The position numbers and the translations under genes were made by a program. Source: Acetobacter peroxydans (GTDB taxonomy: Bacteria > Pseudomonadota > Alphaproteobacteria > Acetobacterales > Acetobacteraceae). Taken from it: a stretch of DNA of 64,000 nt. Position 1 is the first letter of the stretch; every line of letters begins with the position of its first letter. This document shows, in pieces, positions 58,106-63,518 of the stretch. The stretch lies in contig NZ_BJMV01000001.1 of NCBI RefSeq assembly GCF_006539345.1, forward strand, positions 124,001 through 188,000, given 5' to 3'. Below the pieces are notes generated by a model that saw nothing but the letters and a program-made list of their open reading frames with translations, searched no databases and had not been told where the DNA came from.

Positions 58106-61100
58106 TTAGAACGATCCGCTAAAGTATGACTGAAGCGGCGCAACATCAAGCGGTCCCTCGCGCATTGCCGCGATAGCGTGGATAGCGGCGCGCGCTCCGG
58201 CCATGGTGGTGTAGTGCGGAATGCCCAGCACCAGCGCCGAGCGGCGGATGTCGAAGCTGTCCGCTACCGACTGCGCGCCCTGCGCCGTGTTGATCACCAT
58301 CTGCACTTCGCCCGAGCGGATGGCATCCACGCAGTGGGGACGACCTTCGAGCACCTTGTTGACCAGTTCCACCTCGATACCTGACTCGCGCAGGCGGCCT
58401 GCCGTGCCCCGCGTTGCGAGGATCTTGAAGCCCATGGAGGCCAGCAGGCGGCCCAGTGCGGGCAGGTGCGGCTTGTCGCTCGCCCGCACGGACAGGAAGA
58501 CCGTGCCGCTTGCGGGCAGTTTCACGCCCGCGCCAAGCTGCGACTTGGCAAAGGCGCGCTCGAACGACGTATCCAGCCCCATGACCTCACCCGTCGAGCG
58601 CATTTCCGGCCCGAGGATGGTGTCCACCTCAGCAAAGCGGTTGAACGGGAACACCGCTTCCTTCACGGCCACATGCGGCACCACCGCCCGGTCGTCCAGA
58701 TTGAAGGCGGAAAGCTTGTCGCCCGCCATCACCCGGGCACCGATCTTGGCCACCGGCACGCCGGTCGCCTTGGCCACGAAGGGCACCGTACGCGAGGCAC
58801 GCGGGTTGACTTCCAGCACGAAGACTTCCTGATCCTTGATCGCGTACTGCACGTTCATCAGGCCGACAATGCCCAGTTCGCGCGCCATGGCTTCGGTCTG
58901 GGCCTTGAGTTCGGTCACGATGGCGGGCGAGAGCGTGTAGGGCGGGAGGGCGCAGGCACTGTCACCGGAATGGATGCCCGCTTCCTCAATGTGCTCCATC
59001 ACGCCAGCTACATAAACGCTGGTGCCGTCGGAAATGCAGTCCACATCGGCTTCGATGGCGTCGTTCAGGTAGCGGTCGAGCAGGATCGGGCCAGAGGAAA
59101 CCTCATGCCCGGCCAGGCGCAGCACATCGCGCATGTAGCGCTGGAGCGAAGCCCGGTCGTACACGATTTCCATCGCGCGGCCGCCCAGCACGTAGGAGGG
59201 GCGCACCACAACCGGGTAGCCCACGCGCTCGGCCACGGCTTCGGCTTCTTCCTGATTACGGGCGATGCCGTTTTCGGGCTGACGCAGGCCCAGCTTGTGC
59301 AGCATGGTCTGGAAGCGTTCACGGTCTTCCGCGCGGTCGATGGCATCCGCCGGGGTGCCCAGCAGCGGAATACCGGCGGCTTCCAGCGCGCGGGAAAGCT
59401 TGAGCGGCGTCTGTCCGCCGTACTGGACAATGCAGCCCTTCACCGTGCCGCGCTTCTGCTCGCAGCGGATAAGGGAGATCACGTCCTCGGCCGTCAGCGG
59501 CTCGAAATACAGCCTGTCCGATGTGTCGTAGTCGGTGGAGACGGTTTCGGGGTTGCAGTTGACCATAATGGTTTCATAACCGGCCTCGCGCAGGGCGTAG
59601 GCAGCATGAACACAGCAGTAGTCGAACTCGATGCCCTGACCGATCCTGTTGGGGCCACCGCCCAGGATCACGATCTTCTCGCGGTCGGTAGGTGCGGATT
59701 CACAGGCGGGGGGCGCGAAAACCCCTTCGTAGCTCGAATACATATACGGCGTTGCGGAAGCGAACTCGCCCGCGCAGGTGTCGATCCGGCGGTAGGCGGG
59801 CACCACGCCCGCTTCCTCGCGCAGACGCGCCACTTCTGCGGCCTGCGTGCCGGACAGGCGTGCGAGCTGCACGTCAGAAAAGCCAAGCGCCTTGAGCTGG
59901 CGCAGACCCTGCGCATCCTTGGGCAGACCGTGGTTTTCCACAGTGCGTTCAGCGGCAACAATGGTTTCAAGCTGGCGCAGGAACCACGGCTCGAACTTGC
60001 AGGCTTCGTGAATATCCTCGACCGAAAGCCCCGCGCGCAGAGCCTGTGCCGCCATGAGAATACGCTCGGGCCGCTGCTGCGACAGGGCGGCGCGGAACGC
60101 ATCCACCCCGCCATCGCCCGGCACGTCCACGGGGTCCAGACCGTTCAGCCCGGTTTCCATGGAGCGCAGGCCCTTCTGAAGGGCTTCGGCAAAGGAGCGG
60201 CCGATGGCCATGGCTTCGCCCACCGACTTCATGGAGGTGGACAGCAGGGCCGGTGCGCCGGGGAACTTTTCGAACGTAAAGCGCGGGATCTTGACGACAA
60301 CGTAGTCGATGGTCGGCTCGAAGGAGGCCGGGGTCGTGCGGGTGATGTCGTTTTTGAGTTCGTCCAGCGTGTAGCCTACGGCCAGCTTGGCCGCGACCTT
60401 GGCAATGGGGAAGCCCGTTGCCTTGGAGGCCAGCGCGGATGAACGCGAAACGCGCGGGTTCATCTCGATCACCACCATACGGCCGTCTTTCGGGTTGACA
60501 CCGAACTGCACGTTGGAGCCGCCGGTTTCCACCCCGATCGCCCGTAGGCAGGCGATGGAGGCGTCACGCATACGCTGGTATTCCTTGTCGGTCAGCGTCA
60601 GCGCCGGTGCGACCGTAACGGAATCACCCGTATGGACGCCCATGGGGTCGATGTTTTCGATAGAGCAGATGATGATGCAGTTGTCCGCCGTGTCGCGCAC
60701 GACTTCCATCTCGTATTCTTTCCAGCCCAGCACGGACTCTTCCACCAGCACTTCCGTGGTGGGCGAGGCATCGAGGCCGGAGGCTACGATCTGGTCGAAT
60801 TCCTCGCGGTTATAGGCGATGCCGCCGCCCGAACCACCCATGGTGAAGGAGGGGCGGATGATGGCGGGAAAGCCAATTTCACGCAGGGCTTCATGCGCCT
60901 CTGCCATGGTGTGGGCAATGAGGCTGCGCGGGCTTTCGATGCCGATGGCATCCATGGTCTCGCGGAATTTCTGCCGGTCTTCGGCGCGGTCGATCACGTC
61001 CGCCTTGGCACCGATCAGTTCCACACCGTGCTTTTCCAGAAAGCCCGAGGCGTGTAGGGCCATGGCGGTGTTGAGCGCCGTCTGCCCGCCCATGGTGGGC

Positions 61101-61360
61101 AGCACCGCATCCGGGCGTTCCTTGAGAATGATGCGTTCGACCACTTCGGGGGTGATGGGCTCGACATAGGTCGCGTCGGCCAGCCCCGGGTCGGTCATGA
61201 TGGTGGCCGGGTTGGAGTTGACCAGAATGACCCGGTAGCCTTCCTCTTTCAGCGCCTTGCAGGCCTGTGCGCCGGAGTAGTCAAACTCGCACGCCTGCCC
61301 GATGACAATGGGGCCTGCGCCGATGATGAGGATGGAGCGGATGTCTGTCCGTTTGGGCAT
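58106..61360 (-). CDS. carB: Carbamoyl-phosphate synthase large subunit
   Basis: CarB makes carbamoyl phosphate from ammonia, bicarbonate and two ATP for pyrimidine and arginine synthesis. The 1084-residue protein starts [30 protein letters not shown]. Two ATP-grasp halves are visible, with the first [11 protein letters not shown]-type loop near residue 170 and the second half from about 560 ([22 protein letters not shown]). The MGS-like allosteric domain covers the last 140 residues, with [25 protein letters not shown]. The gap to carA is 20 bases. Confidence 0.98.
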
Positions 61361-61380: not shown

Positions 61381-62814
61381 TCAGTTGTGGGCGCCGGCGG
61401 TGCGGTCGATCAGGGCGGTGAAACGCTCGAAGAGATAGAAGCTGTCCGAGGGGCCGGGGCTGGCCTCAGGGTGATACTGCACGGAAAAAGCCGCGTAACG
61501 GTCAGAGGCGATGCCTTCGTTCGAACCGTCGAACAGGCTCACATGCGTCACGCGCGCATCTTCGGGCAGGGTGTCGGCATCCACGGCAAAGCCATGGTTC
61601 TGGCTGGTGATTTCTACACGGCCACTGGCCAGATCCTTTACAGGCTGGTTGGCGCCCCGGTGGCCCTGTTCCATTTTGTAGGTCTTGGCGCCCAGTGTCA
61701 GTGCCAGCAACTGGTGGCCAAGGCAGATGCCAAACAGCGGCACGCCTGCTTCCAGCACCGCGCGGATGGCGGGTACGGCGTAGCGGGCCGTTGCCGCCGG
61801 ATCGCCGGGGCCATTGGAGAGGAAAACGCCTTCGGGCTTGAGCGCGAGGATTTCTTCTCCGCTGGTGGTGGCGGGTACGACCGTGACATCACAGCCCGCG
61901 GCGACCAGGCAGCGCAGGATATTGCGTTTGGCCCCGAAATCGACCGCCACGACGCGGCGGCGCTTTTCCGGCACGGGGCGGGTGGCGTGCGGCCATTCCC
62001 ATACGCTCTGGGTCCACTGGTAGGGAGCGCTGCAGGTGACATCCTGCGCCAGATCCATCCCTTCCAGTCCCGGCCATGCGCGGGCTGTGCTGGTGGCAGC
62101 TTCAGGGTCGATCCGGCCGTCCTGCGGGAACAGCAGGATGGCGGTCTGCGGCCCGCCATCGCGGATGCGCAGCGTCAGGGCGCGGGTGTCCACCCCGGCA
62201 ATGCCGGTTACGCCGCGCTCTTTCAGCCAGGCGTCCAACCCTTCGGTCGCGCGCCAGTTGGCGGGCGCGGTGACATCTTCCTTCACCACAAGGCCGCGTG
62301 CGAACACGCGGGCGGCTTCGTCATCTTCCGCATTCGTGCCGACGTTGCCAATATGCGGGAAGGTGAAGGTGATGATCTGCCCGGCGAAGGAAGGGTCGGT
62401 CAGGGTTTCCTGATAACCTGTCATACTGGTGGAAAAGCAGATTTCGCCCATGGACTGGCCTGCGTTTTCGGCCGCGCTCTGCGCGGGGGTAAAGGCGCCA
62501 AAGCCCTTTCCCCAGAATACGCTTCCATCGGCGAGAACAAGAGCGGCGGTGGCGCCGTCCGGGCGGGCGTCGGGCATGGAGGTTCCTGTCTTGCTGCTTC
62601 CCGTTGCGGGGGAGTGTCTGTCTGTCATGGTGGAGGCGGGGCGGAGGTCTTCCAGCGAAAGTCCCGCGGCCTGGGCGATAACCGGCCAGTGCCGGGCCGG
62701 AATAGCCTGGGCCTGCCGCCATTTGCGGATGGCTTCTGTGCCCACGCCGGTCAGGCTGGCGGTGGCCTCTGGCCCGCCGAGGCGGGCAATGATGGAGTCG
62801 ATCGACATGGACAT
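61381..62814 (-). CDS. carA: Carbamoyl-phosphate synthase small subunit with N-terminal helix-turn-helix
   Basis: CarA supplies ammonia from glutamine to CarB. The amidotransferase triad is Cys364 (GICLGHQ), His448 and Glu450 (YHPEAS). Unlike standard CarA (about 380 residues) this has 477. Residues 1-60 read MSIDSIIARLGGPEATASLTGV, then TEAIRKWRQAQAIPARHWPVI, then AQAAGLSLEDLRP: a YdaS/Cro-like helix-turn-helix pattern. A polar linker covers about 61-85. There is no stop between the parts; internal ATGs at 62628 and 62577 could give standard CarA, the latter with AGGA upstream. Thus either a fusion, or two products. Two palindromes lie upstream. Confidence 0.93.
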   Translation of the reverse strand: MSMSIDSIIARLGGPEATASLTGVGTEAIRKWRQAQAIPARHWPVIAQAAGLSLEDLRPASTMTDRHSPATGSSKTGTSMPDARPDGATAALVLADGSVFWGKGFGAFTPAQSAAENAGQSMGEICFSTSMTGYQETLTDPSFAGQIITFTFPHIGNVGTNAEDDEAARVFARGLVVKEDVTAPANWRATEGLDAWLKERGVTGIAGVDTRALTLRIRDGGPQTAILLFPQDGRIDPEAATSTARAWPGLEGMDLAQDVTCSAPYQWTQSVWEWPHATRPVPEKRRRVVAVDFGAKRNILRCLVAAGCDVTVVPATTSGEEILALKPEGVFLSNGPGDPAATARYAVPAIRAVLEAGVPLFGICLGHQLLALTLGAKTYKMEQGHRGANQPVKDLASGRVEITSQNHGFAVDADTLPEDARVTHVSLFDGSNEGIASDRYAAFSVQYHPEASPGPSDSFYLFERFTALIDRTAGAHN

Positions 62815-62887
62815 GGCCTGGTTCTGCCTCCCGCCTGTGACGCTTCTGGCATCTGATGCGCAGGCTCTCTAGCACCCTGTCTGGGCG

Positions 62888-62907
62888 GTTGGGAAGAAAA
62901 TTCCCAC
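62888..62907. promoter_or_regulatory. Operator-like palindrome 1 before carA
   Basis: GTTGGGAA-GAAAA-TTCCCAC: 6-base perfect arms (TGGGAA/TTCCCA), 5-base spacer, centred 84 bases before the carA start. Its arm sequence is the same as in the palindrome at 62932. The half-site nearest carA may overlap a weak -35 box. Confidence 0.55.
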
Positions 62908-62931
62908 TCATCCCGGGTGGCGCTCGGGGGT

Positions 62932-62952
62932 GTTGGGAAGTTTTTTCCCAAC
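62932..62952. promoter_or_regulatory. Operator-like palindrome 2 between carA and yqeY
   Basis: GTTGGGAA-GTTTT-TTCCCAAC: 8-base perfect arms with a 5-base spacer, centred 44 bases (about four helix turns) from palindrome 1. It lies about 110 bases before yqeY and about 120 before carA, so it could serve both divergent genes. Confidence 0.6.
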
Positions 62953-63062: not shown

Positions 63063-63518
63063 ATGTCCCTTCGAGATCAACTGATGTCCGATCTGAAAAC
63101 CGCCATGAAAGCCGGTGAAAGCGCGCGGGTGACGACAATCCGCATGATCACCGCCAAGCTGAAGGATGTCGAGATCGCCGGTCGCGCCAAGGGAGCGGAA
63201 GGGCTGAGCGATGAGGAAGGCGTGTCCGCCCTGCGTGGCATGATCAAGTCACGGGTGGAATCCGCCACGATGTACCGCGACGCCGGCCGCCCTGAACTGG
63301 CGGACAAGGAAGAAGCGGAAATTGCCGTGATCCGTGCCTATCTGCCGCCAGAAATGGACGATGCCTCGCTGGCGGCTGCGGTGCAGGCGGCCGTGGCGGA
63401 AAGCGGTGCCACCTCCATCAAGGAGATGGGCAAGGTCATGGCCGTGCTGAAAGGCCGTTTCGGCGCGGGGCTGGACATGGCCCGCGCGAGTGCGGCGGTC
63501 AAGGCGCTTCTGGGCTAG
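63063..63518 (+). CDS. GatB/YqeY domain protein
   Basis: The 151-residue protein is a stand-alone YqeY: MSLRDQLMSDLKTAMKAGESARVTTIRMITAKLKD and a C-terminal helical domain ATSIKEMGKVMAVLKGRFGAGLDMARASAAVKALL, read in parts. The same fold is the tail domain of GatB, which binds tRNA in the glutamyl-tRNA amidotransferase. The role of the free protein is unknown; it is regularly found next to dnaG and rpoD in proteobacteria. AGGAG lies 7 bases before the ATG. dnaG begins 54 bases after the stop. Confidence 0.93.
   Translation: MSLRDQLMSDLKTAMKAGESARVTTIRMITAKLKDVEIAGRAKGAEGLSDEEGVSALRGMIKSRVESATMYRDAGRPELADKEEAEIAVIRAYLPPEMDDASLAAAVQAAVAESGATSIKEMGKVMAVLKGRFGAGLDMARASAAVKALLG

Follow-up and report, generated by a model that had tools for sequence, protein, structure and literature searches.

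Paired promoter palindromes and a Cro-like head on carbamoyl-phosphate synthase suggest an enzyme-repressor of carAB in Acetobacteraceae

The stretch of DNA considered here (the window, 64,000 nucleotides of the Acetobacter peroxydans genome) contains carA and carB, both encoded on the minus strand, and the divergent gene yqeY, with two palindromes located between carA and yqeY. The carA product consists of a helix-turn-helix (HTH) domain fused to the small subunit of carbamoyl-phosphate synthase, and carB, since it lies directly downstream of carA, is probably a part of the operon whose control is discussed below. The features of the locus are as follows:

58106–61360, minus strand: carB, directly downstream of carA (from the list of open reading frames; named from sequence and position)
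61381–62814, minus strand: carA, 477 aa, HTH domain fused to the carbamoyl-phosphate synthase small subunit (open reading frame and profile search)
61405–62547, minus strand: catalytic part of CarA, residues 90–470 (TIGR01368, 444.5 bits, cut-off 307.35)
62572–62640, minus strand: variable linker, residues 59–81 (pLDDT below 50 in the full-length model)
62644–62802, minus strand: Cro-like HTH domain (carph-isopro), CarA residues 5–57 (NF046037, 66 bits, cut-off 38)
62710–62739, minus strand: recognition helix of the HTH domain, residues 26–35 (TEAIRKWRQA; helix of the model; Gln34 codon at 62713–62715)
62866–62874, minus strand: predicted extended −10 element of carA (TGC TAGAGA), fitting the Acetobacter box-anchored consensus TGCTAGAA with a one-base shift
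62890–62906, minus strand: predicted promoter-proximal operator box, TGGGAATTTTCTTCCCA when read on the carA strand, kept across Acetobacteraceae
62934–62950, minus strand: predicted promoter-distal operator box, TGGGAAAAAACTTCCCA when read on the carA strand, with perfect arms reaching 62932–62952
63063–63518, plus strand: yqeY, divergent neighbour (PF09424, 145 bits)

The enzyme part of CarA looks intact, with Cys364, His448, and Glu450, the residues of the GATase triad, invariant in a 33-row alignment, and the linker joins this part to a Cro-like HTH. As in an enzyme-repressor, a DNA-binding domain is fused into the enzyme, the Cro-like HTH and CarA being encoded in one frame. The model of the HTH domain consists of four helices (mean pLDDT 86.6), and its top fold matches in the PDB were the Cro proteins of Xfaso 1 and of N15, the latter both free and operator-bound, with a weak best E-value of 0.021. 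The same Cro proteins came first in a sequence search of the PDB, also weakly (E about 0.003–0.005; best 0.0029). The gathering score of P22_Cro (PF14549), 30.2, was missed by the whole CarA (19.5 bits) as well as by the domain alone (22.9 bits); the CarA HTH is of Cro-like fold and not a member of PF14549. A search of the Acetobacter genome gave a single NF046037 domain, and the closest named relatives of the domain from the window belong to A. papayae and A. suratthaniensis (98% identity). It is also worth mentioning that the window carA contains an internal ATG at 62577 of the minus strand (MPDARPDG), with AGGA 6 nt before it, and that the HTH-less CarA of two reduced Acetobacter genomes (L116 and L282) begins at the place of this ATG. 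An HTH-free CarA made from this internal start is possible.

Twin palindromes with equal arms had been noticed before carA in a preliminary description of this DNA, and they proved to be real: two TGGGAA-N5-TTCCCA palindromes are located between carA and the divergent yqeY, 44 bp apart (start to start), and are the sole exact copies in the genome. The window reads GTTGGGAAGAAAATTCCCA at 62888–62906 and GTTGGGAAGTTTTTTCCCAAC at 62932–62952, the 17-bp boxes themselves being TGGGAAGAAAATTCCCA (62890–62906) and TGGGAAGTTTTTTCCCA (62934–62950). The equality of arms holds for the 6-bp TGGGAA/TTCCCA of both boxes but not for the full 8-bp arms, which are present in the distal copy only, whereas the proximal one continues with CTC. 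With at most one mismatch, TGGGAA-N5-TTCCCA occurs twice in the 64-kb window, both times here, where 0.14 sites would be expected; among 100 dinucleotide shuffles of the 64 kb, one reached two such sites anywhere. A longer palindrome pattern allowing up to three mismatches was found 5 times in the window against 4.4 expected, that is, at chance level, and therefore it is the exact copies that constitute the evidence for the boxes. No further copy of TTGGGAA-N5-TTCCCA or TGGGAA-N5-TTCCCA was found in the 2.70-Mb genome. The motif is not a common hairpin scattered over genomes of this kind, as the genus, away from carA, also has it at background level: 7 exact sites in 49 genomes, compared with 6 for a reversed control pattern. 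A broad regulon was considered on the same grounds and is unsupported by these counts. Within the family, at least 62 of 100 genomes contain any exact TGGGAA-N5-TTCCCA site. One outlier (G500, contigs C5, C7, and C14) has 11 exact sites, which, among the matches listed, represent one sequence and its mirror; a repeated element is therefore more probable here than a set of operators.

The boxes and the HTH domain occur together. In Acetobacteraceae, 194 distinct HTH-carA loci spanning 96 genera were compared, and a scoring box, defined as one within 260 bp upstream of carA whose score reached at least the 99% quantile obtained from shuffles, was present in 193 of them and in 95 of the 96 genera, with two boxes in 176 loci. 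The sole locus without a box by the matrix (L296) has boxes of the Ser type described below. Since the score matrix was derived from part of the scored loci, a count with the plain consensus and no matrix is safer: a box with at most one mismatch was found in 68 of 78 loci and in 0 of 3,900 shuffles, which, like those for the HTH-less family loci, preserved single-letter content only. The 194 loci include one with a frameshifted HTH (L192, genome G009), and L193, having no carA, was left out. In L192 the HTH frame is broken after EAIR and both boxes are intact; the frameshift may be an assembly error, the genome being 91% complete.

The reciprocal comparison concerns carA genes without the HTH domain. 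In other alphaproteobacterial families, 0 of 28 HTH-less carA loci had a box, while a divergent yqeY adjoins carA in 23 of the 28. Inside Acetobacteraceae, a box was found in 0 of the 3 HTH-less loci with readable upstream DNA (L116, L307, and L308); this set was defined without L282 and L303, which have less than 100 bp upstream, and without L311, a fragment. L307 and L308 (G461 and G544) represent one genus with genomes of 1.9–2.1 Mb, in which the divergent yqeY is kept, and their product is, as read from the gene, a natural HTH-free CarA. L116 on the one hand and L307/L308 on the other form two HTH-less lineages, the three genomes being of 1.7, 1.9, and 2.1 Mb. Taken over all testable HTH-less carA loci, a box was found in 0 of 31 and a divergent yqeY in 25 of 31. 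The check proposed earlier, a search for the motif upstream of carA in related genomes, has returned a box at nearly all loci with the HTH and at none of the 31 testable loci without it. Among 372 genomes, strong matches of the CarA-type domain were restricted to the five Acetobacteraceae members. The six weaker matches outside the family (L407–L412) had no carA, and the three scanned (L407, L408, and L412) had no box. Likewise, carA was found at 0 of 29 carph-isopro loci elsewhere in the class (new loci L049–L077). The domains at those loci are mostly located in long frames without CarA, often with a VxVTTVQGWK-like helix followed by low-complexity Ala/Pro-rich sequence.

The presence of the domain is not the only property that follows the boxes; the end of its recognition helix does so too. 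The residue after RKWR, at position 34, is Gln in 181 loci, including the window, Ser in 25, Thr in 3, His in 2, and Ala in 1. In the Gln loci, 586 of 670 arms have G at arm position 2, and in the Ser loci 73 of 84 arms have C there. The boxes for these counts were located by a scan for the GGAA-N5-TTCC core, which itself fixes positions 3–6 and leaves 1 and 2 free, so that only positions 1 and 2 are informative; two loci with TGGGAA boxes (L152 and L155) were lost from the scan because of their GC-rich spacers. The Ser34 loci have arms that are mostly CCGGAA instead of TGGGAA, and 24 of the 25 have no TGGGAA arm. Searching 397 family genomes for non-Gln codons by the coding pattern alone gave 36 matched genomes and 30 returned loci (G494, G511, G573, and G616 were covered by other sets, and G550 and G722 were left out). 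carA is present in 25 of these 30 loci (24 Ser, 1 Ala; L396–L399 and L401 have no carA), and a TGGGAA arm in 0 of the 25, the common form being CCGGAA-N5-TTCCGG. Among 50 columns of the domain, residue 34 is the most informative on box type (genus-weighted mutual information 0.177 bits; next column 0.123).

The debatable issue is the number of independent events. In a 115-row tree, residue 34 changes five times and box type four times, but well-supported branches carry only one independent pair of changes, and two neighbouring clades contain 24 of the 25 Ser loci; because of this single pair, a sign test cannot attain 0.05 and significance based on events is out of reach. Exceptions are also present: L310 has Ser34 and yet one TGGGAA box, the three Thr loci are mixed, one of the two His loci is mostly of the G type, and four Gln34 loci have mostly non-G arms. 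Some Ser-type loci (L376, L382, L385; L373, L374, L378, and similar) have one clear box only, or a proximal box with GGAT for GGAA. The switch at residue 34 and arm position 2 is compatible with a direct contact between helix and base, with few independent events behind it. The suggestion of the preliminary description that the HTH domain of CarA is the candidate binder, tying carA to its own product, gains support from these comparisons, in which the box tracks both the presence or absence of the domain and the change in its recognition helix.

The position of the boxes points to the core promoter. A group of 98 loci from 54 genera other than Acetobacter has a proximal box that ends 11–15 nt before the ATG; TTG is located exactly 6 nt 5′ of the box in 90 of them, [TC]A directly 3′ in 85, and both in 81. 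Because these flanks have fixed positions, the 17-bp box can be read as the spacer between a −35 (TTGnnn) and a −10 (TAtaat-like) element, and transcription probably starts at or near the ATG, giving a leaderless carA mRNA in these loci (e.g., L121, L122, and L130). A box that fills the predicted spacer before a probably leaderless start codon would be promoter DNA, not an mRNA hairpin. In lineages with longer leaders, including Acetobacter, it is the −35 region that the proximal box overlaps, and a predicted −10 element follows about 17 bp after the box, being of the TGCTAGAA type in Acetobacter and weaker elsewhere. The predicted −35 position of the window carA coincides with the inner arm of the proximal box, at about 62889–62894. 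For Acetobacter itself, the promoter is placed by prediction, with a consensus weaker than that of the 98 loci. The consensus measured in Gluconobacter oxydans, ttGnnn with Tatnnn added for abundant transcripts, as given in PMC5756330, agrees with the predicted carA elements. By comparison, an operator matched to the domain appears to lie in the promoter of the gene's own operon, as in an enzyme-repressor.

The spacing between the boxes is less strict than had been assumed. The 44 bp of the window had been taken to place both boxes on the same face of the helix; as this distance corresponds to 4.2 turns, the placement is only approximate, and the claim is not supported by the loci outside Acetobacter, where 38–40 bp predominates. 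Among 176 pairs, the distance is 38–40 bp in 117 and 44 bp in 24, 22 of the latter being Acetobacter (22 of 32 loci of this genus). What is conserved in the sequences is two sites at a limited distance, not integral helical turns.

Taken together, the comparison indicates that the HTH and the boxes co-occur, that residue and base change together, and that the boxes are located within the predicted promoter. With high probability, HTH-CarA of Acetobacteraceae is a bifunctional enzyme-repressor that lowers transcription of its own carAB operon via paired HTH domains on two core-promoter operators. In the proposed mechanism, the N-terminal HTH domains of CarA oligomers would bind each palindromic operator as a pair, the bound protein would block polymerase at the carAB promoter, and carAB transcription would fall when the CarA enzyme is plentiful. 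Physical binding, repression rather than activation, and any control by effectors such as UMP and ornithine are inferred. In E. coli, carbamoyl-phosphate synthase occurs as a heterodimer when UMP is present and as (αβ)4 with ornithine, according to PMC6245113. Since two operators provide four half-sites and the E. coli enzyme forms (αβ)4, an assembly-coupled switch can be considered, in which an oligomer with up to four HTH domains fills the four half-sites and allosteric effectors directly set the strength of autorepression; this extension is tentative and possible rather than probable.

Several other explanations of the boxes have to be weighed against an HTH-CarA repressor. The divergent genes yqeY-dnaG could be the target, alone or together with carA, and the preliminary description had suggested control of this primase operon. 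A divergent yqeY adjoins carA in 174 of the 194 loci (the flank covered for the remaining 20 showed no yqeY), but no conserved −10 or −35 element was found on the yqeY side at a fixed distance from the boxes, and outside the family the same divergent neighbours occur without boxes, which makes this target unlikely and leaves that suggestion unsupported. It could also be argued that bound HTH-CarA activates carAB. In the longer-leader lineages, including Acetobacter, the proximal box is on the −35 region and the distal one is mostly 38–50 bp further up, where activators can sit. However, in the 98 loci the box fills a normal 17-bp spacer between −35 and −10, in which a bound protein is expected to block polymerase, and a biosynthetic enzyme activating itself would be an unstable logic; we consider activation quite improbable.

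If the boxes were bound by another transcription factor, encoded elsewhere and specific to carA, with the HTH of CarA serving otherwise, then the loss of both HTH and box could follow a wider loss of the circuit in the reduced genomes (1.7, 1.9, and 2.1 Mb). Such a factor would, however, leave unexplained the joint absence of HTH and box in 31 of 31 testable loci and the fact that, among the domain columns, the one at the end of the CarA recognition helix is the best predictor of the base in the box; its involvement is very unlikely. A structured RNA in the carA leader (attenuator, riboswitch, or masking of the ribosome site) was a further candidate, as each box could fold into a stem of 6 bp closed by a loop of 5 nt, the Ser-type clades changed both arms (CCGGAA/TTCCGG) with the stem preserved, which fits a protein dimer equally, and Polynucleobacter has a known carA RNA motif (PMC8632094). 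It was rejected mainly on the promoter position: the predicted −10 elements are downstream of the boxes, which would therefore be outside the mRNA. In addition, 94 one-sided changes of the arms against 3 compensatory ones, among 131 family sites, look more like recognition by a protein, and all Rfam matches were below threshold. RNA hairpins are the least credible of these explanations and extremely improbable.

Autorepression by HTH-CarA can be compared with known systems. The name of the carph-isopro family (NF046037), of which the window domain is a member, appears to refer to carbamoyl phosphate synthase, and the fusion is for this reason very probably known to NCBI curators; the family entry gives no operator or role. 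The examined members outside Acetobacteraceae are located on other proteins and have a different recognition helix. In open-licence PMC papers, neither the carph-isopro name nor a publication on the operator or role of the HTH-CarA fusion was found. BirA, PutA, and NadR are enzyme-repressors. HTH-CarA resembles them, as well as the trigger enzymes PepA and PyrH, in being a metabolic enzyme with a proposed part in transcription control; in E. coli, PepA and PyrH act at carAB and PepA represses P1 (PMC6245113). In sequence and fold, the closest matches are found among the phage Cro proteins (N15/Xfaso 1/P22 type), one of them in complex with its operator (6on0); for Cro proteins, correlations between helix and half-site were described (Hall 2005, as cited in PMC4997575). 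Unlike phage Cro, the HTH of CarA is part of a metabolic enzyme, and the operator proposed for it is TGGGAA-N5-TTCCCA. The Polynucleobacter carA motif is likewise a cis element directly before carA, but it is described as a proposed betaproteobacterial RNA hairpin (PMC8632094), whereas the Acetobacteraceae boxes would act as DNA. The domain fusion has already been catalogued, and enzymes that double as repressors, through a fused domain or by moonlighting, are a known kind; a carbamoyl-phosphate synthase small subunit as the predicted repressor of its own operon appears to be new.

The Acetobacteraceae include vinegar-making and cellulose-making bacteria, and the fusion is present in nearly every genus of the family examined. 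With the present comparison, a catalogued fusion gains a candidate operator, a candidate base-specificity residue, and a predicted role. If this is true, then the enzyme at the common entry to arginine and pyrimidine synthesis, carbamoyl-phosphate synthase, has a built-in gene switch in these organisms, which would replace the control by many factors described for E. coli (PMC6245113).
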